The notes under the pieces: generated by a model | Seen by the model: the letters and a program-made list of their open reading frames with translations, nothing else | Told to the model about the DNA's origin: nothing | Databases searched by the model: none | NCBI RefSeq assembly: GCF_019649055.1 | Contig: NW_026570284.1 | Location: 744,001-808,000 of the forward strand | Length of the DNA: 64,000 nucleotides | DNA from: Paramacrobiotus metropolitanus | Lineage: Eukaryota; Tardigrada; Eutardigrada; Parachela; Macrobiotidae | Direction: 5' to 3' | Shown here: piece by piece, positions 3,201 through 64,000 of the stretch | Layout of the letters: the number at the start of each line of letters is the position of its first letter | Position numbering within the stretch: the first letter of the stretch is position 1 | Position numbers and translations under genes: made by a program

Positions 3201-5024
3201 ACCGACAGACATCGAGCGAAAAGCGACTTACAACGAAGCCCAGCCAATTGGAACTTGACACGCCTATTTCTCGCTTCGATGTAAGTCGCTGATGCTCGAT
3301 GTAAGTCCGCGTTTTGACTCTGCGCATCCTCTGGATTATAGCGTGACTTTGTACAAAGATGGGCTTGTGTGTTCAGTATTGTACATACTTATAATTGATC
3401 GTGAAAACTCACGTACACGATTACATCTGCTATTTGAATCTTTTATTCAGCGGTGCCGTTTGCTGCGGCTTAAGGAATCTTAGAATTTGACCAGGTTTCA
3501 AAATGTCCAGGTATGCATATGCTGATGATTGGACTTTCGCGGACTCGGAGCCTTTAGCCAACGTCATGCAAACGTTGTATTGCGCCAAGAAGTATCTGAT
3601 CAGAAAATTGATGCGTGCGTGTCGTGATCATGTCCAGTCTCATGTTAATTATTCGGATGCAGCTGATGTAATGCAACAGGTATTCATGCACATTGCAGAC
3701 ATGCAGCAGTGCCCGTATAAGACTGCCTAAGGTCACCGACGCTGTTTTCGACGCTTGACCGTAGTGCGTGTGCAGTGCGATAGTTTCCTAGACTGTGTGC
3801 AGTATTTCTAATTGTGCGGTAGATTTCGACTGTGCAACAGCCAATAGCAGATGTGCATCCCTGTCTGTTTTGATCTTCCAGGCACGCCTTTTGGGAGAGG
3901 ATGATCTCGCAGAAATTGCTCTGGAAGAGATCCGTCGGTGTACATCTCTTTTCTTGGATACAGAGGAATTTCTATCTCTTCCTTTGGACTCAGTAAAAGA
4001 AATTCTGGATCAAAATAACTTGGATGCTTCTGAGCCGAAAATTTATCAAAGTGTTTGCCGGTAGAATTGTTTCCCGTGTTTATATTCGCTGTTGCATGAT
4101 AATTATCAAACAACGTGCCTGATGTTCACAGGTGGATCAAACATAACGTCCCATCTGAAACCACTACGCTGCGTGAGCGTTTTGGTTCATTATTTCGTTT
4201 GATCCGTTTTCCGGCGTTCACTCCTGTGGAATTATCGGATGGCCCAATAAAGGTACGATGCAGCTCATACTCGACTTCTTGCCCTCTTTTCAAGTACATT
4301 TAAAAAGCACAACTCACAAGCATGTTCGAGCGTTACATGGTTATCATTAGTTCATTACTGCATTGCCTTCTTACGTTAAAATGTTGTCACAACAGTAAAA
4401 CTTACAAGTTAGCTTATTCATTAACGCTTTCAGTTAATTTGCTTTGTTTGACAGGATGGCTTGTTGACGACCGATGAAGTGTACAATTTATTCCAGTACT
4501 ATTTTGCAACGCCAAAACCGGCCGTGCCTTTTCTGACAACGCCACGTAAGGCTCCGGCTGAAGGAGGCGTTTTGCAGTTTACATTGGACATCCCACGCAC
4601 TGATAGGGACGCCCTTGCTCATGAGACTTTCAATGACCATATTGCAATTAACCTGCGTCCCGATCTGGCTCCTGAATGTGTTGCATTCTTAGAGGAGATC
4701 GTTGGCGGCAATTATGCTCTGGAGTTTAGGGAATATCCCAATGAGCACAGCAAGGAGTGCACGCGTATTCCCCCGGTGGTGGTCCAAGAACGGAATCCCT
4801 TCTCGCATACCATTGAGGGAGCTTGCTGGTTGGAATGGACAATCAAAGGCGGAAAGGTGTGCAACTTAAATATCGCAGCATGGAGGGAGCCCACCGCTTA
4901 CCATAGTGCGGTTTTTGGTTTCGTTGACAATAAAGACGCCGTGGATATATTTACGGGCTTTGATCTATGGGACAACTTCTGTCCTGGAGGTCGCGCAATA
5001 AATTTCTTTTTGAGTGATTTTTGA
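224..5024 (+). CDS. BTB-BACK domain protein, tandem copy 1 (BTBD3/6-like)
   Basis: Six coding exons: 224-375, 666-782, 3511-3679, 3882-4060, 4132-4252, 4455-5024. All junctions are GT-AG, phases agree, and they give 435 aa. The start at 224 matches the start of the neighbouring paralog; the frame is open upstream to 95, so a longer N-terminus cannot be excluded. Exons 1-3 encode a BTB/POZ fold (SDITFVVGDG, then KFILALVSSVF, then the YCAKKYLIRKL helix); exons 4-6 begin with a BACK-like region (LFRLIRFPAFTP, YNLFQYYFATPKP). BTBD3/6 proteins are usually Cullin-3 substrate adaptors, so this role is inferred. In BTBD1/2/3/6 the BACK is followed by a PHR domain; here the last 170 residues do not look like PHR to me. 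Intron 2 (783-3510) is ten times the length of its counterpart in copy 2 because of inserted DNA. Confidence 0.86.
1103..3330. mobile_element. 2.2-kb insert with 30-bp perfect terminal inverted repeats, in intron 2 of BTB copy 1
   Basis: Positions 1103-1132 and 3301-3330 are exact reverse complements over 30 bp (the left arm begins AGGATGCGCAGAGTCAAAAC). An imperfect match runs about 10 bp further out on both sides. The motif GCGACTTACA or its complement recurs inside both ends (near 1125, 3222, 3282), and ACAGACATCGA recurs at about 1158 and 3205, which looks like subterminal repeats. The paralogous intron in copy 2 is only about 260 bp (6425-6683), so this stretch is best read as an insertion. 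I see no transposase and no clear target-site duplication, so a non-autonomous DNA transposon or a composite is inferred, not shown. Confidence 0.6.
2039..2836 (+). mobile_element. Non-LTR retrotransposon fragment: C-terminal zinc finger and restriction-like endonuclease
   Basis: An uninterrupted reading frame of about 265 aa without a credible promoter or full-length element. It carries a CxxC-x8-H-x4-C type finger (CAKCRKPVDVYGHHGLSC), then GRHARH, then RPDG followed 14 residues later by WDVTCVDT. This order of finger, basic pair, PD and D is what I know from the C-terminal end of R2/NeSL/CRE-type retrotransposons with a PD-(D/E)XK restriction-like endonuclease. The reverse transcriptase itself is absent upstream (783-2038 shows no such frame), so this is a 5'-truncated or fragmentary copy. 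It lies inside the inverted-repeat-bounded insert. Which clade it belongs to cannot be settled by eye. Confidence 0.65.
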
Positions 5025-5948: not shown

Positions 5949-8746
5949 ATGGCTCAGCCATCCGGATTGCCAATTGAAAATGACAAGACTTGGCGCTCCA
6001 GCAAGAAACTCCACAAACGCACTGCGTATTTGCTTGATCATCCAGACTCGGAGATACCCAATGATATCACGTTCGTGGTGGGAGATGGTCGGGACGAACC
6101 TAAGAAGACGTTCAAGTGCCACAAGTGAGTTTTGTCTCCGTAAACATTCGGCTGTCTGTACTCTGCAGTAACTGTTTAGTGTTTACTATGAGCACGGCTT
6201 CGCAAAACTACAGTACTTCGTGATCATACTTATTTTTTTCATCGTTCATAAGTTAAACCACTGAACGTGAGTTCTGTATCCTTTAAGTTTTGCTTTCGAT
6301 GCAACAGGTTCATATTGGCGCTGGTTAGTTCGGTCTTTCATGCCATGTTCTATGGGAACTTTGAACAAGTTGAAGTTGTCGAACTGCCTGACATCACGCC
6401 ATTTGCTTTCGAACGTATGCTTCGGTAAGTGTGGATTCTGTGTGGTTTAAGTCATGCGTGGCATTTAGTAACTTACTTACTGGTTAATAACTTATCCCTT
6501 ATGTTGAAGAATCCTATTTTCTTGGGCTTTGCAACCTTTGCTGCTTAATCAGCCTTTATGACTGTAACCACTAACCAGTAACAGTACTTACCTACTACAT
6601 ACAACTTTATTCACCTGTGGTACAACGTGTTATACAATAATTATTAAAAACAACGATTAAATAATTATTATTACTTACATTAGGTTTGCATACGCTGATG
6701 AGTGGACTTTCGAGGACAGTGTGCCGTTGGTCGACATTCTTAGCACTTTGTACTGCGCAAAGAAATACCTAATCAGCAAGTTGTTGCGCGCCTGTCGAGA
6801 TCATGCGCAGTCTCGTGTGGTCGGTTCGGACCCTTCGGATCCCATTATCGCTATTGAGCAGGTATGCCATGTCTGATGATGCCTGCTCGACTGATAATAA
6901 GTTAAAAAAATTGAGTAGGCAAAAAATTGAAATGTTTTAGTTACTGACTTTTTAATAATGGCGGACCGTATTCTGTTGATTGATGTCCTGGAGAAGCTTT
7001 TCTGCTTCCCAAAAGTATTGCTTGTAGTAGTATATTGTTTTTAAACTGAAAATCAAATAATACTAACTATTAAGGACAATTTATTAATATTAATAATTTA
7101 ATATTGTTACTATTGCACAAGAGCAGACAACCGATTTTCGAAAGGGGCTTAGGTATGCAGCGTTCTCTAACGTTGCTGTCTGGTCGAAAGAACACCAAAG
7201 CAGAGAATCTGTTATCCATCCAGAACTGATTTTAAGAAATAGAAAAGAATTATTATTTAGTCAGCTTACCCTGGTCAACCATTTTCAGCGCAAACCAAAA
7301 AAAAACCAACAGTTTCCGCATTTGAAATATCGACATTAATTTTTTATGCACGATGGTAAGTCTTTCATTCGCATGGCAAATGTAGGCTCCCCGATCTCCT
7401 TGGTCGCCTTTCCTTTAGTTCATGTATAAGAACAAGTGCAGTTTTTTTGCTATTCTGATTCAGTCATTAGATTTTATCCTAAGTACATGTAGTGTTTTGT
7501 AGTCACGCTTTTTGGATGAGGAAGATCTCTCGGATCTTGCAGTTGCGGAAATCCGTTATTATACCCCTTGTATCCTACGTACTGCCGCTTTTCTGCAGCT
7601 TTCCTTAGAGTCGGTAAAGCAGATCCTGGAACACAACTGCCTAGACGCTACCGAACCGGAAATCTATCGAAGTGTTTGTCGGTAAAAACTTCTAACGCTG
7701 TGCTGCTTGTGCATTCAACACCTTTTTATGCCGAAATATGCTAAAACACGTTAAAAATTCTAGTTGGGTGAAGCGCAATATGGATTCTGGCACCGTTACT
7801 CTGCGTGAAGGTTTTGGATCGCTGTTATATCTAATTCGCTTTCCTTTGTTCACTCCTGTGCAGTTGGCGGAAGGACCAGTGGAGGTATGGTGCAGTTCAT
7901 TAGAATCAACAAGGTTAAGTAAAGTGACGGAAACCACCTTACTTCTTCTTCCACACCAGTATGCTTGTTTTGTCATGGATGGGAGGATTTTACAGTAAAC
8001 TCAGTAAAGTGTGGTACCTATAAAAGACACCAATAAGGGCGGAAGAAGAATTTAAAAGGTTTTTTTGTCTTATTTTTATCCTCTGTCATATATACAGACT
8101 AGCCGTTGTTATTATATTATTGCTGGGGGTCGGGTCTCCTTTTAACGTGATACACTTTTCGTTGGAACAGGATGGTGTGTTCTCTCTCGAAGAAGGATAT
8201 AATTTATTTAAGTACGCCTTCGCACCTTCCAAGCCTGCAGTGCCCTTTGCCACAGTATCCCGTACTTCACCTGCTGAAGCAGTCGATGTGCTGGAGTTTT
8301 CACTGGAAATTTCACGCTCTTCTCGGGAATCGGCACCATTGAGGGCTTGCAATCAGATCATTGAAATTAATCTACGCCCAGATCTGGCTCCGGGGTGTAT
8401 TGCCTTTTTGAAAGAAATCGTCGGCGGCGAATATTTTTTGCAGTTTGGGGCTTATCCTAACGAGCACAACAAACAGTGCACAAACGTTCCCCTCACTATT
8501 AAAGACCGGAATCCCCTGTCGTTTACTGTTAAAGGAGCTTGCTGGTTCGAGTGGGACATCGATGACGGCAAGGTGTGCAACTTAAAAATTGCTGCATGGA
8601 ACAAGCCCGCAGTCTGTCACAGTGCGGTGTTTGGTTTTATCGAAAATAGTGATTTTGTTGAAAAACTGTTTCATAGTTTCAGCGTATTGGACGAACATTA
8701 CGCGGGGCTTTGCGCTGTCGGCAAGTTTCGTTTTAATGACGACTGA
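5949..8746 (+). CDS. BTB-BACK domain protein, tandem copy 2 (BTBD3/6-like)
   Basis: Six exons: 5949-6124, 6308-6424, 6684-6861, 7503-7681, 7764-7884, 8171-8746; phases agree and give 448 aa. Exon lengths 2, 4 and 5 (117, 179, 121 nt) equal those of copy 1, and all intron phases are the same, so the two genes are a tandem duplication. BTB lies at about residues 38-140 (NDITFVVGDG, HKFILALVSSVF, LYCAKKYLISKLLRACRDH), a BACK-like region follows to about 270 (RWVKRNMDSGTVTLREGF, LIRFPLFTP). The last 175 residues (INLRPDLAPG, CWFEWDIDDGKVCNLKIAAW) match copy 1 closely and do not resemble the PHR domain normal for BTBD3/6. A ubiquitin-ligase adaptor role is inferred from BTB-BACK alone. Confidence 0.88.
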
Positions 8747-53166: not shown

Positions 53167-54008
53167 TTACATAACACTGCAATCTTTATCGCTCTTGGGC
53201 GTTTCCCGGCCTAAGCTGTCCCGGGGGAGATTATCACTGGGATCCCTGTCGCGATTCACATCCTCGGCGCGATTACTGTGACTACTGCGCCGGCGCGGCG
53301 ACCGCGGTGACGGATCGGCCGAGGCGCTGCGGCCGTTGGTGCGCACCTCGGGATTGAGCATGTGGGAGGTGCTCGTGGCTGCCAGGGGTGGCCAACTGGG
53401 GACGCCGGTGGAGCTGCGCGCCTCCAGCGGCTGCTTATTACGCACGGAGCTTCCGCGGCGATCGCGCAACCGTCCCGGAGACGGCAGTTCCTGCGACGAT
53501 TCCACATAGTCCCCTTCATAGTACACCCGCACCGACTGGACCCAGAATTTATCCTGATGACCCTGATCGTACAGATACCGGCTCTCGGCGGTGATGATGA
53601 TCTCGTCGCCGACGTACGAGCTGTAGCCGTGCGTCTCGATGCCGATGATGGGCGAGTGGTCGGCGAAGATCCATTCCTGGACTTTGCCGACCAGATCCTG
53701 GAGGTTGTTGAATTTCGGCTGGCGTTTCCCGTAGTGGGTGGTGTCACCGGAGCCCGGGGGGTGGGACTAACATCTTGAGGAACACGCACGGGAAGGTCGG
53801 CATCTCCGCGGAGACGAGGTGGGTCTGGCGGGCGTATATATATAGATCAGGCGGATGAAGCGCAGTAAATTCGTACAGGAACCGCTCCCCATCCCCCGAT
53901 GACATGTAGAAGGTGGTCTGTGTGACTATGTTTTTATTGTCGTTAACGTGCAGGACCACCGTCTGAATGTTGACGATACGCAGACCGGGATGTTCGTCCT
54001 CTTGGTAT
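53167..54008 (-). CDS. Unrecognised gene, 3' part, ending in a CAAX box; one frame break
   Basis: An exon starting at acceptor 54008 reads VVLHVNDNKNIVTQTTFYMS and then LYIYARQTHLVSAEMPTFPC. At about 53756-53761, a run of six G, the frame shifts by one and continues as THYGKRQPKFNNLQDLVGKV, IIGIETHGYSSYVGDEIIIT and KFWVQSVRVYYEGDYVES to a Ser/Arg/Pro-rich tail, with the stop at 53167. The last four residues are CSVM, a good C-a-a-X prenylation signal with Met favouring farnesylation, so the product may be membrane-tethered. I recognise no family. The break may be a homopolymer indel in the assembly, a short intron (acceptor at CGCCAG) or decay. The exons further right may belong to the same gene. 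Confidence 0.55.
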
Positions 54009-54010
54009 CT

Positions 54011-54245
54011 GTAATGATTTCCAAAAGGTCATCAGGAGAGTTCCGTAACGAAATAGAACAGCGCACTTCAACGTGTACCATCTGTAATGATATATTTTTT
54101 TGTAAGGTCTTCGGCCGTAATAATTTCTTATCGAAAAGATATGATTACGTACTTTGACGTGCACTATAATATGAATTTGTGATGGTTTTTCAAAGGTCAT
54201 CAGCATAATTTCGTAGCGAAATATGTACTAGCAACGTGTGCTAAC
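54011..54245. repeat. Local direct repeat, two diverged copies of about 70-80 bp
   Basis: Segments 54011-54092 and about 54178-54245 align along most of their length, sharing AAAGGTCATCAG, then TTCCGTAACGAAATA versus TTTCGTAGCGAAATA, then CAACGTGT. The left copy keeps one open minus-strand frame (SISLRNSPDDLLEII) behind an acceptor-like TTACAG; the right copy has a stop in the same frame. It looks like a duplicated exon or intron end, one copy degraded. Confidence 0.6.
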
Positions 54246-54996: not shown

Positions 54997-56156
54997 CAAC
55001 TTCCTCCATGCGTTCCACCCTCATCCCGGGAATCTCCTCACCAAAGTCCAAATAAAACACTCATAAAAAATACAGGCAAATTTTTTGCTTTTGGCCATGA
55101 AGAGAAGCAAGTGCGGTTGGAATCAACGGCTTCTGCAAAGAAACACTACCCGGGTACTTATATGTAGTACGATGCCGGTCTCAAGCAATATTGCCATATA
55201 AAAGGGAAAAACCACGTACAGCGCTTTCCGTATATAATGGAGCGGCACAAAATCATAATCTGGTACGAACCATTTGAATGGAATTTTAGTGGGAGTGGGA
55301 GTTGTCTGCACAGCCAGGATGGGAGTGTTCAGTACTAACAATTTACCGGCATGAGTGCATTCCGGGACCACATTAAAGTAGCGCAGGTAGTGGGATTTCA
55401 TCTGGCTATTACGACTCAGCGCCGGTATTAAGCACATTCTAAGGCCACGCACGAATTCCGTCCAATCTTTCATGGTTTCAAAGTAGGAAGCTGTGTAGAA
55501 AAGCAATAAACGGTCATTTGCTGGCATTTTATAATGACAAAGTGCGGTATAGTGCAGTAAAGTAACAGTCTTTGATAGTGTGTGTGCTTAAAAAAACAAA
55601 AACATTGTTCACAAAAGACAAAATAATATATTCACTAACACATCTTGGAAATATAATTACTGAATTTTACAGTTCTACTAATTGATCTATTTTTCAAAGG
55701 TCACATTTTACCCTGTGCATTCGACCGTTAGTTGGATCCACGGTTTTTGTGTTATGCTGCGCCAAAATGTCCAAGCACTCAATATTGAGATTCTCAAATT
55801 CCCAGCGTGACGACAGCCATTCACTGGCCTGTGCCAAGAGAATCCCGAATGCCTCATACGTGTGACTACTAAACAAAATGCCTACCTCCAGCATATGCGG
55901 AAAGAAATCGCGATAGGTCAGACTGCTATAAGCGAATTCCGGTGAGAAACTGACGTCCTCGTGGTTTGGTATCGGTGTGGCAGTGTTCGTCCGCTCTCGA
56001 GGTGAATTCACTGAACTGGAGCTACTCGGGCTGGCAGTGTACAGCCGGTTCTGTGTAAACAAACGGATCCTCCATTTCCTTCCAGTTATCCCGATATTGG
56101 TCTCATACCTTTGTGATCCATTTGATTTCGCCAGTTAAAATCTTTTAAACGTCCAT
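54997..56156 (-). CDS. Exons of an unrecognised gene, probably the 5' part of the CAAX-ending gene
   Basis: Candidate exons from the right: 56109-56156, about 55712-56050 (or to 55726), 55158-55490, 54997-55059. The joins 55158-55490 to 54997-55059 agree in phase; the two outer joins do not close cleanly by hand. The frame at 55712-56050 reads a Ser/Thr-rich start and then FAYSSLTYRDFFPHMLEVGI and SSRWEFENLNIECLDILAQH. The next reads MKDWTEFVRGLRMCLIPALS and LHYIRKALYVVFPFYMAILL, hydrophobic enough for a membrane segment, followed by MFYLDFGEEIPGMRVERMEE. I do not recognise the family. The region downstream (54.3-54.99 kb) shows no exon. Whether this joins the CAAX-ending part is inferred from strand and order only. 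Confidence 0.45.
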
Positions 56157-56849: not shown

Positions 56850-59800
56850 TCAGTCTTTGTAGTACAAATCAAGCGCGGCGAAAGTTAGCTTATTCATGCT
56901 TGATAAATCTAGCTGTCGCATGTCGACATTATCCCAGCGCTGCGGATTGCCGTTTGGATCGACACCGTTAAACCTAAATCCCAAGTACCACTAATTTATA
57001 TTTATATCAAAACACTTATCTGAAGTCCCGAAATAGCGGTTGGCAGTTACCATACTCACATATGGAAGAAGCTGCGAATCCCCGCCCACTGTTTAGGGTA
57101 TGCCAACACCTGCACCCAGCGCGCATGAATAGCGGTGACCTTTTCCAGTACTTGTTGTGTAACGGCCGGGCAACTGTCGCTAACAGCGGCTATGAAGCGA
57201 TGCCACTTCTCTGTTGCTGTCTCTGTGTCGCGGAAGCGCAGGAACGGAATCATTACATCCAGTTGGCCTTCATTTGATTCCCACATGATCGTCTTCTCTA
57301 TTTTCGGCCAGGATCTGCCGGCGTTGTAGAAGAGCTTCAGGAATAGAGAACTGCTACCGGTACCGGCCATCGGAAGCGCGGTAGTTAATCAGAATGAGCG
57401 TTTTACACATTCCGAACCACAATGACAAACGGGCGCATTCAAACGTATCACCGTAAACAGACGTTATTCCCATGAAAGGATTATGCATGAAAGTCTTGTT
57501 CTCGTAACCATTCTTGACAATGAGCAGCGGTAGGCGAATGCCCTTCCCATGTACGACGTTCAATAGCCGCAATATTTCTGCTCCAAAATTTTCTCCGCTT
57601 AAATTGCGGCTCTCTACTGGTGTTCTTTCGTCGACCAACGCCTCCGCTTGTGTCTCGCCGGAAATAGCGCGTTGTAACATCGTTACCATTTCGTATGTAA
57701 TGACATCTTGCAAAGCACGATATATCGAGCCATCCCAGTCTTCGAGGGTACATCGGGAGGGGATGATGAAAATAATGTGGCGATGAGAGACATTATCGCA
57801 CGAAATCAGCTGATGCCAAAGCGCGCACACCCTGTCAGCGACATCAGGGAATACAATATAGTCAAAATACTTGACTTGAGATACTGTGTTAACATTAGCA
57901 CTATGAAAGTGGTTTCCTAGCATGAACGTGTTAAACCGGAAAAACCTTCCGCCGCTCCAAGAAAACATCCGCCGTAAATTTCACCCACCAGTTCATTTTT
58001 GCTATTCAAAAATGTGAAGCCCTATGGTCAGGATTTACGTGCGGATGATTTTACCAGTTGAAAGCGTGTTCATATCATTTTGCTAGAACGCTTACCAAAC
58101 AACTGCGGTTAACTTACTGGCTCATCCGTAACTGAGAAATGATATCCATGGTCCAGAAAATAATTCCAGGTATTGCGGCCGGGAGAACTTGGATGCCTTT
58201 TTCTTCCACTTCTATAAAAACGTTCGCTTAACGATCGTTTTTTGTTCAAAGACAGAATAAGCACAGGGAGAACTTTGAAAAATACTTTTATCGGCAATGG
58301 TCAAGTTGGCGTCGCCAAACACGAATTTAAGGGTTAAAATTATTGTATATATGATATGCGTCATTTATCCTGCTGTTACTTATTATGTACAGGTTATAGT
58401 ACATTTCTCGATCATAATTTTACTACTTTTAAATTGTTGTTATACTTAAATAATCGCTGCGACATAACAAAATTCTTCTTGAAATGTGGAAGAAATCAAG
58501 CACAGAGATCTGTTTATTGCAAAAGTGCAGAGATGACCACGCATCATGTACGACTGACCACTAACTGAGATAGTTGTCAACAATTATGGAAGTCTTATTT
58601 TCTATACTTTCACCGTGCACTGGTTAGAGAAAGCATAAGTTAAGATGGGAAGATCGTACTTGATAATTTTACGCATCTAAACAGAAGTATAGACAAATCA
58701 AAGCTCAAATACTGTACCATTACATTTACATCAGTTTTTCAGATTTTCTCCGCGCCGGTAAAAAAAGCGGTGCAAAATCACAGATAATGTATAACAGAAC
58801 ACATAGAGTAGGTATCTGCCGTTATATTAATTCAACGCTTAACACTGTTGTTATTGTTGCAGTTTATTTATTCTTTGGACTGTCCTTTACGGTACGTAAT
58901 ACAATATGAGTACTTCGTAGAATACAATAGCAATTTTAGATCGAATAGTATCGAAGCGGCATTAACAAGTAAAGAAAAGTGAATTTGATAGTATTGCCGC
59001 ATAGCTTTATTTTGTTTTACTGTACAAAGCACTACTGGATACGTATACAGATACACATATTTTTATGTATGAAAGCAAGCGCATATAAGTATGAAAGAGA
59101 GAACCAGAAGCTTGTCCTTTGTATTCAGCTGCAGGTGAAACGATTTTGTGGCGCAAAACAGGGAAACATCTTTCAGTAGTTACTCAATTATCTGACACTT
59201 TATTTGATTACACCCTTATTTGAAGTTTATTTCTTCCTATCCTTCATGTTTCATTTATTTGCTGTCGCGCTCCAGCTGAGTGTCCAATAGAGTCAATAAT
59301 TTCTTGCATGAAACGATTTTTCTAACATGATGTGCAATGATGCATATTTTGCCACTCACCGTGTTGTAAGCTGAATAGTGGGGAGTTCGGTGGGACCAAA
59401 ATCATGTTTCCTCGTTCGATTCCTCGCGACTGTTGCTCGGTGAGGTAGTTTTGGCACGATTTTCTGAGACTATCTTCGTTCCAGAACAAACTGCGTCCCG
59501 CTGCGTCACCATGCACTTCGGCGCAAATGAATGTGACCGTGTCGATTTCCGCTCGCACAAACACACGACAATCTACCTCGAAATAGTACTCCGCGCCCGT
59601 ATGGTTTTTTTTATAACGAAAAATAAACCTCATCCGTGTTGGTTATCTTATTAAACCGGCAGCGGTCATTACACGGGTCACTAGAGAGTAAGAGTACTTG
59701 GCATGTGGGAACCAGAAACTTGGGCGCAACAGATGTGCCTGATTGAAAGACACGATGTGCTTCCGGTAGCTTAGTCCGTTAGGCCGTCGATGGAAACTTT

Positions 59801-60251
59801 CCTCGTCAGTTTGCAACGGCAGATGTTCGGTCAGGTGGCAGACCGGCACAACCCGGCATTCCGGTGAACTAGAGGATGTGTTTGGCTGATTTAAGCTGAC
59901 CGCACAGAACATGCAGTATATTGAGTTTCTATCTTCAATCACAGTAGCTGGTCGGAATATGAACGGTCCGCCGGGTTCGTCCTGTAGTGCTGCATGCAAG
60001 GAAATCTGAGGAACTGATGATGTAAGGCCACGATACCGGATCCTACGATGCGGGTATACAAATTTAGAATGGATCCATTCGATAGGGATGGTGCTGGCAT
60101 CGAAGTCAATGAAGAAGTAGTCGCCGTCAATATCTTGGACACTTCCTAGCCACCATTGGCCGTTGTCACGCATCACGAGCACTGTGTTTCTGTAATTTAC
60201 AGTCCGTCCATCGGAGCGCAGCTCCCGAAAATAGCGCGATAAGCCGGACAT
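56850..60251 (-). CDS. Tudor-like / F-box-like protein of a lineage-specific family; frame breaks present
   Basis: ATG at 60251. Exon 1 (about 59650-60251) has a Tudor/SH3-like start (NTVLVMRDNGQWWLGSVQDI, YFFIDFDASTIPIEWIHSKF) and the block DEPGGPFIFRPATV. Exon 2 (59360 to about 59620) reads GAEYYFEVDCRVFVRAEIDT and ends in NSPLFSLQH. Exon 3 (58118-58211) joins it in phase and reads VLPAAIPGIIFWTMDIISQL, like the start of an F-box. About 57360-57900 continues with DVADRVCALWHQLI and SHRHIIFII. From about 57370 to 57059 it reads VTAIHARWVQVLAYPKQW. The last exon is 56850-56973. From memory this architecture is repeated many times in tardigrade genomes; its function is unknown, and substrate recognition for a ubiquitin ligase is only a guess. 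The frame changes between exon 1 and exon 2 (near a run of eight T at about 59604), into exon 4, and by one base at about 57355-57372. Confidence 0.62.
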
Positions 60252-63001
60252 AGTGCTTCTGGAATGATTACTATGTAAACTACCTGCAAAAAAGGATGAT
60301 AATACGTTACAGTACAGTCGGATTTCACAGAGGCTATTGTATGATTTATGCCAAGATACATCCATGTTGCAGATGATTTACAGCTGAAACAGTTTTAATG
60401 AAAATACAACAATCAGTGCTCTCCTCATACATTACTTGAAAGGTTAAAGTGGACATCTATAGCGTGTTTTTACCACCGGAACGTCAGTCTCATCATGTGC
60501 GATGGCTTTTCAATCCCAGTAATTTCTCTCATGTTTTGCCCATCATTAACGTGCAGGTTGAATGGAGATTTCAACACAACATATTCATCCGCAACGTAAA
60601 AATAAAATACAACTGCTAATTATTGTGGGAAAGATCTGCAGGGGCAAGAAATGAAAAAAATGAGAAAATATTAATTTTTGTAATGCAAAATTACTTATTA
60701 TTAGCCTTGCAAGCGCAGAATTGGCAGTAGTACTTAATAAAAGCTAAAATTGCAAACTACAGAAAGAACTGCATAAATAAGGAAGACAAACTGTTTACCG
60801 CAAGATCTCAAGCACAGGAAACAGAATCCCGTCACACAGATTAGCAACTCTCTGGATCATCAAATTTTTCGGAAGAACTACTTTACGCATCATGCAAAAG
60901 GGCGAGAGAACTAACCTTCACGTGCTTGCTGTGCAGAGCGATAACATACGCATGCTAGCTGTCACTTCCGCATGCGAATCCAGATGGTCAGAAGGACATT
61001 CACTTATTCCACTGGATAATATATCAAAATAAACAAATCCTTCTCCGCGACGCTGGGAATATTAGGGCAGCACGCGAATAAGTAAATCCGTAATCAATGA
61101 GAAAGAAGGCAGTTCTCGAAATGGCGACTTTTTTCTTTTTGACAGCAGTACAGCATTCAAATGCCAAAACTAAAACGGCCGAACATAACCGATCATGGAT
61201 CCCGTGCTGTTGCACACATTATGCACCTGCAGCATCTGCATCGGCCCGCATTGTGCTAGGATTTCATCAATACTACCCTCACTTGATTCTGATTGCAAAA
61301 TTAGCACTCCTGGTTGCAAAATTAACACTCTTGAGGAAGAAGGTGTTTTAAAACTGCCAAGCGGGGACTGTATGTGCTATTGTCGGTGTGACGGTCAATG
61401 AATGAGCTAAGTGTGGGCCTGTGGCCACTACCAACTCTATACGTACAGAGTACGTACGACTGCGCACTTTTGTAGTAAGTACAGTCCATACAACGTGAAT
61501 TTTATTGACGCTGTTTTACCTGGATAGAAGGGAAGGTTCAATGCACCGGCGGCTGGCCCGTCGCACTGGCAAGTTTCCGGTTTACAACGTCCATTTGTTC
61601 GGGAGATGAAGCATCGGGGTACCGAAGATACATTTATATTATTTGTTTTTTCAACACCGAAATGTAGAAACAAAATTAATGAAAGTTTTTTTCACTCTTT
61701 AAACTTTTCATAGGTTGCATAATTCAGTACGTGCACGCTAACAGAAATCATTTACAATATATAGACAAGAACAGGTACAGTGCGCTCGCCTATTTTCACT
61801 GTCTTTCCGGTAAGCAAACCCGTTTAACAAATGCAGCCGCATTTAAACGTTTCCCTCAGGGCTGGCCTGTATTCCTGTGAAATTCAATTTTCTGTCAAGC
61901 TTTATTTTTGTTTCAAAACAAAATCTATCTGAAAATTGTAAATAAAGGAAATTCAAAGACTTCCGGCGCTTGAAACATTCACAACCGCCCGGTGGTGTAG
62001 CGCAATTCAGTTTTTCATCTTGCAAATTTCTGAATATTCCCGTACTTTTCCTTTTTGATTTTTCTCAACGAAAAGTGTTTTCTTTTGTCTTTCTTCGTTA
62101 AAAAATTAAGAACAAGAGGTTGCGAATAATTTTTGTTAAATATGTATCGATTAGAACTCGACCGGCGCGAAACCACTCTATCTGCCTTAACGGCCTATAG
62201 AAAAAAGCAAGGAACGTGACGTACGGCCAGTGTTAACCTTCGATAACTCGCTACAAAAATTTTCTGACATGTATATGATCATGTGACTTACCTACTTAGT
62301 TGTAATTGGGCGTTTTTTAATATGCTGCGATATGAGGAATGAGCATGCGAATCGGGGATGATCGGGTAACTGATCCGATAGAAAATTAATTTAAGTAGTC
62401 TTGCTGTTTTGGACTGTACTGGTATTGTTCATGGACGTCGCCCAGGCAAATTACCATGGATTACCTCGTATTTTATTACCGATGTTGTGCTACTATAAAG
62501 AAGAATCAATCTATGGTATGGAACATTCAGTTTATGGCTGTAAACTTATCAAGTCTCAAAAGCGTTAAAAATCAAGTGAGCAGCCAGATTCGGATGATAC
62601 AACAATAATTTTGATATTGTCCGCACACAGAAAGGTTGACCTTTGATAATGCTCATATACTGTAATTATAGCAAAATGTTTCACAGTTCATATGTATATA
62701 ATGTTATAACGTAGTAACTGAGCGCTCCCTTAACAGGCTGCGATAGAAATGCGAAGGATTGACCAATACCATGCATCCGGATGTGATCGCAGGCACTGCT
62801 AACAGAGAAAACAGCTCTATGTGATACTATGTAGTATATTTCTATTGTTATAAATCTTGTTTTTTGATACCCAGTCCGTACTTTTATGACGATAGAAGTA
62901 TGATTTAATGCGTTGTAAAAAAACAAGTTTCAAGAGTGCTGTTTGCAATTTATAAACAAATGGCAGAAAAACATACAAAGTATACCAGCACAATATACTG
63001 A

Positions 63002-63132
63002 CCCGAGTAAAACAACTTGCAGGAAAAACGTTAGTTTAACGTGTAACTATTGTTAGGTGAACGGAGGTGTGTAAATTTTAGCCGTCTACTAACGTTCAGC
63101 TAACGTTTTTTTTGCAAGTTGTTTTACTCGGG
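63002..63132. mobile_element. 131-bp MITE-like element with 19-bp perfect terminal inverted repeats
   Basis: CCCGAGTAAAACAACTTGC at 63002-63020 is the exact reverse complement of 63114-63132. Inward, AAAAACGTTAG on the left is matched by CTAACGTTTTT on the right, so the arms extend to about 33 bp with small gaps. It has no coding capacity. The size and hairpin shape fit a miniature inverted-repeat transposable element; a target-site duplication is not obvious. Confidence 0.75.
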
Positions 63133-63138
63133 GGATCT

Positions 63139-63172
63139 TGTCGCTTGCATACATAAATGCATGCAAGCGACA
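63139..63172. repeat. 12-bp perfect hairpin next to the MITE-like element
   Basis: TGTCGCTTGCAT at 63139-63150 is the exact inverted match of 63161-63172 around a 10-base loop. It begins seven bases after the end of the MITE-like element. Confidence 0.8.
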
Positions 63173-63890
63173 CCTACAGTAAATTTACATTTTAGCGCGA
63201 GTCATAATACCGTCATTCCCGCATCTGGCGATGGATCCGATGCTGGGTCAATCTAGAAGCCGATGTGATTCGCGCGCAGGAAATAACAGGAGACGCACTG
63301 GTTTATGTGTGCTGTGTACGATGCACTGGTTTATATACATGTGTGGTGACATCTCTTCATCTTTCTGATGTCACTTTCCATCTATCTCACATTAATCATT
63401 CCTGTGACCTTTATGCAACTGCCTTAACCAAAGACAAACGTGGGTAGATACTAGATAACAAGTAGGCGTTGGTTTTTGCTATACGTTTTAAGGGTTTTAA
63501 GGGGATTTTACGCAACACCCTTTTTCTCACGGTGAGTTAAGTACAGCATTCTGTGCTCTGTGCCAATCTGTGGTAACGATTAATTCATATTCTACGTTAT
63601 GCGAATGCTTAAGCTTCCAGCTTCGTCCTTCATATTTCGTAACCAACAAACGCTCGACATTTCTTAACGGTACAATTACAGAAACAAGAATTAACAAAAG
63701 ACAATAAGAATAAAACAAAAAAAAATATTGCCACTCTAACAAACAATTACCATAATCAGCTAATATATATCCCATTATCAGCAATAATAACAAAAAACGG
63801 AACTCTTCGACGAAGAATGCATTATAAATAAGTCAGCCGCTGCAAAAGATACTAAAATTCTATAATCTTGTTGCTTCGTTGACATGGGCC

Positions 63891-64000
63891 TTAGTCTGCC
63901 AAGTATTTGTCCAACATGTGCAGAGATAATGGACTTAGCAGCGACACATCCATTTCCTTCAGGTCAACGCCATTCCAACACTGTGGCTGTCCGTCAAAGC
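63891..64000 (-). CDS. 3' end of a second Tudor/F-box-like family member (cut by the window edge)
   Basis: A minus-strand frame enters at 64000 and ends with TAA at 63891-63893, giving 36 codons: FDGQPQCWNGVDLKEMDVSL, then a Leu-rich end. It aligns along its length with the last exon of the gene at 56850-60251 (GNPQRWDNVDMRQLDLSSMN), including the spaced Trp, Val-Asp and Leu-Asp. So the next gene to the right is a tandem paralog on the same strand. Only its final exon is inside the window. Confidence 0.75.
   Translation of the reverse strand, partial: FDGQPQCWNGVDLKEMDVSLLSPLSLHMLDKYLAD

Follow-up and report, generated by a model that had tools for sequence, protein, structure and literature searches.

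The right end of the 64,000-nt stretch of tardigrade DNA analysed here (the window) carries two neighbouring minus-strand genes with similar C-termini, and it raises the question whether these genes represent a family that joins a reader domain to an F-box. A first-pass annotation had proposed exactly this, namely a tandem cluster combining a Tudor/SH3-like reader with an F-box-like core. We assessed the gene structure, the paralogy of the two genes and the two proposed domains separately, and then weighed the readings that the locus allows.

A predicted five-exon gene and the last exon of a neighbour

A gene model was predicted from the DNA alone, with splice sites picked by frame and consensus. 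In this model gene 1 lies on the minus strand and has five exons, with its start codon (ATG) at 60251 and its stop codon at 56850. Joining the exons gives an intact frame of 566 codons, and none of the exons contains an internal stop; the four introns measure 84, 1476, 55 and 86 nt, each with GT-AG borders. Every peptide that the first-pass annotation quotes was found on the minus strand. Exon 1 encodes WWLGSVQDIDGDYFFIDFDA, exon 3 RVCALWHQLI and exon 5 WDNVD/LDLSS, while WNGVD/MDVSL lies within 63894-63998. The features are as follows.

59673-60251, minus strand: gene 1 exon 1, open frame with 193 aa counted from the ATG; residues 14-76 likely a Tudor/Agenet-like segment
59360-59588, minus strand: gene 1 exon 2, in frame with exon 1 via an 84-nt GT-AG intron, donor ACG|GTGAGT
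57409-57883, minus strand: gene 1 exon 3, in frame with exon 2 across a 1476-nt GT-AG intron; at its start the putative degenerate F-box-like motif FDYIVFPDVADRVCALWHQLI, followed by about 130 residues of unassigned fold
57354-57408, minus strand: candidate intron of 55 nt between exons 3 and 4, obtained by enumeration of in-frame GT-AG pairs and from the full model
57060-57353, minus strand: gene 1 exon 4, open frame that outscores all 46 background ORFs in the codon test
56850-56973, minus strand: gene 1 exon 5, C-terminal signature WDNVD..LDLSS and stop; paralogous to 63894-63998
63891-64000, minus strand: gene 2 (paralogue), last exon, FDGQPQCWNGVDLKEMDVSLLSPLSLHMLDKYLAD and stop; truncated by the window end

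Exons 3 and 4 are in different frames, a point absent from the first-pass annotation, and the candidate 55-nt GT-AG intron at 57354-57408 reconciles them. The frame change may alternatively reflect a frameshift, and the joint is the weak point of the gene 1 model. The intron preceding exon 5 (86 nt) is in phase 2.

Coding potential was addressed by codon usage. The training set comprised eight other stretches of the window with 1658 codons in total, and at least one of these stretches lacks a Pfam match; the background consisted of the 46 ORFs between 54000 and 64000 with 50 codons or more. The joined gene 1 frame, as well as every exon alone, scored above all 46 background ORFs, and in the joined model the coding frame scored best of the six frames. 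The values of single exons are weak, because an antisense frame outscores the coding frame in exon 2 and likewise in exon 5. The last exon of gene 2, with 35 codons, likewise exceeded 46 of 46 background ORFs. The longest frame spans 244 codons from stop to stop; when the region was simulated 300 times with a Markov model, 1 simulation reached this length.

The gene 1 protein matched no described family above the curated cut-off in Pfam. The Pfam scan returned no match for exon 2 and a single sub-threshold match for exon 4 (NIPSNAP, E 0.13), which was absent when the stretch was cut differently.

The C-termini of genes 1 and 2 are related

The visible part of gene 2 consists of 35 codons plus a stop (63998-63891) and is located upstream of gene 1 on the same strand. 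The C-termini of both genes align without gaps over 34 residues, 13 of which are identical (38%), with a Smith-Waterman score of 78. None of 20,000 shuffles matched this score (maximum 47), and among the 1308 stop-terminated frames of at least 30 residues in the window the third-ranked C-terminus scored 33. Searches by tblastn within the window recovered the two tails in both directions (E 1.4e-6 and 9.7e-7). Judged from these alignments, the tails are those of true paralogues, adjacent and in the same orientation, with gene 2 represented by its last exon only.

Thus, the C-terminal signature that the first-pass annotation had ascribed to two same-facing members is borne out by the shuffles and by the tblastn values of about 1e-6. 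Its tandem cluster holds up in so far as two adjacent members face the same way, but it amounts to one gene plus 35 residues, because only the last exon of gene 2 lies in the window. A third member could not be found in the window by tblastn with family queries (best other match E 0.41). The ORFs within 55126-56134, considered as further members, showed no relation to the family in blastp and tblastn.

The surrounding window

Outside the locus, six of ten other scanned ORFs, on the minus strand, gave Pfam matches (Sec23/Sec24, gelsolin-repeat, HGSNAT/DUF5009, KH and ankyrin), and the window looks eukaryotic and animal-like. Downstream of gene 1 there are two open frames on the minus strand, 55126-55527 and 55697-56134, of 134 and 146 codons; neither has a Pfam match, and each is equalled by 1 of the 46 background ORFs in the codon test. 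Between genes 1 and 2, at 63002-63132, lies a palindromic element with 41-nt arms that are 90% complementary and 49 nt apart. It resembles a small inverted-repeat transposon (MITE); inspection by eye showed no obvious target-site duplication. A direct repeat of 49 nt is present at 54007-54055 and 54175-54223 (78% identical, spacing 168 nt). At the other end of the window we observed a second same-strand pair of paralogues from an uncharacterised family, 4452-5021 and 8168-8728 on the plus strand, which are 53% identical over 188 aligned positions; Pfam returned nothing at E up to 0.01 for the copy at 4452-5021. Finally, a 291-codon open frame without Pfam match occupies 1961-2836 on the plus strand and may represent the tail of a retroelement protein.

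Exon 1 likely encodes a Tudor/Agenet-like segment

The Pfam family Tudor_4 matched exon 1 as a whole with E 0.021 and the 566-residue protein with E 0.065. The isolated 63-residue segment reached E 0.0026 and 17.8 bits, under the curated cut-off of 25.8; this E-value is optimistic, since the segment was chosen after the first Tudor_4 result. When the segment was compared with the PDB at E up to 10, Tudor-type proteins accounted for 8 of 10 matches: six chains of FMRP, FXR1 and FXR2 (best E 0.029), which belong to one family and are therefore not independent, and one chain each of ZGPAT and a Polycomb-like protein, where we take the matches to be to their Tudor domains. The two other matches were the SH3 domain of intersectin-2 and a sugar-binding protein. 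For the three PDB alignments displayed, single stretches reach E 3.5-9 at best, and the reported values of 0.03-0.09 are sums over two stretches. A 427-residue query returned only two SH3 matches from the PDB (E 1.1 and 1.5) and no Tudor match.

Shuffled versions of the segment served as controls. In Pfam, 3 of 10 gave any match (best E 0.01, an unrelated family) and none of the 10 matched Tudor or SH3; in the PDB, 2 of 3 gave matches (best E 0.24), and a Tudor match occurred in 0 of 3. An AlphaFold2 prediction of exon 1 alone, run without an alignment, was uninformative on the barrel (mean pLDDT 35.1). Residues ~95-145 of exon 1 look beta-rich by eye. A second barrel at this position was considered and dropped: Pfam gave no match, and the PDB returned two unrelated matches for residues 95-153.

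Taken together, the N-terminal segment of gene 1 likely forms a Tudor/Agenet-like barrel. The reader domain of the first-pass annotation thereby gains moderate support from Tudor_4, the Tudor-type PDB matches and the clean shuffles, but the segment stays below the curated cut-off.

The F-box-like core is without significant matches

The second domain proposed for the protein, an F-box-like core around RVCALWHQLI, received no significant support from Pfam, the PDB or a home-made profile. No F-box family was detected in Pfam for single exons or the whole protein (E up to 10) or for the joined exon 2-3 stretch (E up to 5), and the PDB search of the core gave one unrelated match (E 1.6). The home-made profile was built from 12 F-boxes. 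It assigned 3.4 bits to the 70-residue core, aligning only 12 residues (RVCALWHQLI and its neighbours). This score was reached by 20 of 2000 shuffled cores and exceeded by 9 of 856 ORFs in the window. Uncut sequences scored -0.2 (exons 1-3), 0.8 (exons 2-3) and 1.1 (exon 3 frame). AlphaFold2, applied without an alignment to the exon 3 frame up to its stop, yielded an uninformative model (mean pLDDT 34.8), whose last ~17 residues fall within the proposed intron and which leaves out the part of the motif encoded by exon 2.

By eye, LQHVSQVKYFDYIVFPDVADRVCALWHQLI would fit an F-box minus its LP(xE) start and two residues short before RVC, and the RVCALWHQLI region displays the pattern VCxxWxxL preceding a hydrophobic run. 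An alternative F-box start, PLPIKVFFKVL in the second intron (58109-58300), was rejected; it is preceded by a stop, scores -1.5 on the profile and has no acceptor by eye. F-boxes usually stand before the substrate-binding parts of a protein, a position that counts against an F-box in gene 1. One study describes fast-evolving, clustered F-box proteins in Caenorhabditis tropicalis whose F-box is invisible by sequence (PMC12680543), and another reports that F-box genes in Caenorhabditis multiplied chiefly via tandem duplication (PMC8665587). Divergent F-boxes can thus escape sequence detection, and the F-box of gene 1 is a putative one.

Possible functions of the gene 1 protein

We tentatively consider gene 1 to encode an SCF-type substrate receptor joined to a Tudor-like reader. 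Its F-box-like motif would bind SKP1-CUL1, the substrate-binding body would be built from the shared C-terminus and the region that follows the motif, and the Tudor-like barrel would bind a methylated or otherwise marked partner and thereby contribute to the choice of targets or to location. In this reading we infer the F-box itself, the binding to SKP1, the turnover of substrates and what the barrel binds. We name it first since it explains a larger part of the sequence; equally likely is a reader without F-box. In that case a Tudor/Agenet-like protein would bind methylated or RNP/chromatin partners via the barrel, the remainder would be a family-specific scaffold and RVCALWHQLI an ordinary amphipathic helix. 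Such a protein commits to less mechanism than the SCF receptor, and it agrees with the Tudor-type PDB matches (mostly FMRP/FXR), with Tudor_4 and with the lack of a significant F-box. Against it speak the F-box-like VCxxWxxL before the hydrophobic run, with a profile score so seldom reached by shuffling, and the weaknesses of the Tudor matches, which apply here as well (the 427-residue query and the E-values of single stretches).

Less probable, though still to be reckoned with, is a Tudor likeness by chance in a protein of altogether uncharacterised fold. The E-values of the whole protein are indeed weak (Tudor_4 0.065) and improve only when the segment is cut out, the 427-residue query finds no Tudor in the PDB, and both structure predictions are empty; however, chance does not readily explain why one fold class makes up 8 of 10 PDB matches of the segment as compared to 0 of 3 shuffled controls. 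We regard it as improbable that gene 1 is a decaying copy, in which a frameshift instead of an intron would separate exons 3 and 4 and residues would have been lost from the F-box-like region. The exon 3 frame runs on to a stop (57354-57356) and is overlapped by the exon 4 frame, the reconciling intron measures a mere 55 nt and its acceptor context GGTACCGGTAG has no pyrimidine tract, and the second intron is long (1476 nt). Decay is opposed by the GT-AG intron itself, which restores a single frame of 566 codons, by exons devoid of stops and by codon usage, which speaks for the coding frame in the joined model. Going beyond the SCF receptor considered above, one may speculate, as a long shot, that a lineage-specific tandem family combines a divergent F-box with a Tudor/Agenet-like reader of marks and provides rapidly diversifying SCF receptors for the destruction of proteins that are marked, foreign or selfish. 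Such receptors would act like the nematode KSS F-box antidotes, from which the preceding reader domain would set them apart.

Relatives and significance

The collections searched for relatives were non-animal ones. No relatives of exon 1 were found among viral contigs, where a degenerate DNA search pattern encoding D[IMV]DGDxFx[IMV]DF[DE] also matched 0 stretches. Among prokaryotic genome contigs a sole stretch carried the motif, in a Gemmatimonadaceae MAG (L001); it runs antisense to an ORF, presumably that of a peptide chain release factor, and was taken as chance. The first 427 residues of gene 1, compared with plasmids by tblastn at E up to 1, gave no match. In the tardigrade literature, the titles and abstract beginnings among the matches listed contained no description of the gene 1 family, the scope of this search excluding preprints and most subscription-journal papers. 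Tardigrade genomes may hold many such proteins, which provides a lead. A comparison of two tardigrades reports 1,486 clusters exclusive to them (PMC5531438).

Should barrel and F-box both be real, the locus would be a candidate for an animal family acting in proteostasis or defence. Should only the barrel be real, it would represent an uncharacterised reader family, a useful annotation but an unsurprising one. To our knowledge, there is no described example of a substrate receptor that combines a Tudor-like barrel with an F-box.

Comparison with known systems

Gene 1 resembles the Tudor/Agenet domains of FMRP, FXR1 and FXR2 (PDB 3kuf, 3h8z, 2bkd) and Pfam PF18358 (Tudor_4) in a short pattern, WWL..V.....GD...I.., over ~22-33 residues, but it scores under the thresholds of these families. 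FMRP/FXR proteins carry KH domains. These are not seen in gene 1, as the rest of its protein has no Pfam match above cut-off. SH3 domains (Jouberin 4esr, intersectin-2 1uhf) match the same segment weakly (E 0.13-1.5); with the 63-residue query they fall behind the best Tudor-type matches, whereas with the 427-residue query they are the only matches. With SCF F-box receptors, including the nematode KSS/KSL and fbxa proteins, gene 1 shares the VCALWHQLI stretch, an adjacent paralogue on the same strand and an uncharacterised C-terminal body. It differs from them in lacking a significant F-box in Pfam or the small profile, in its Tudor-like N-terminal segment and in a link to SKP1 that is putative. 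If the architecture holds, gene 1 would be a variant on Tudor-type readers and F-box receptors, both of which are known kinds.
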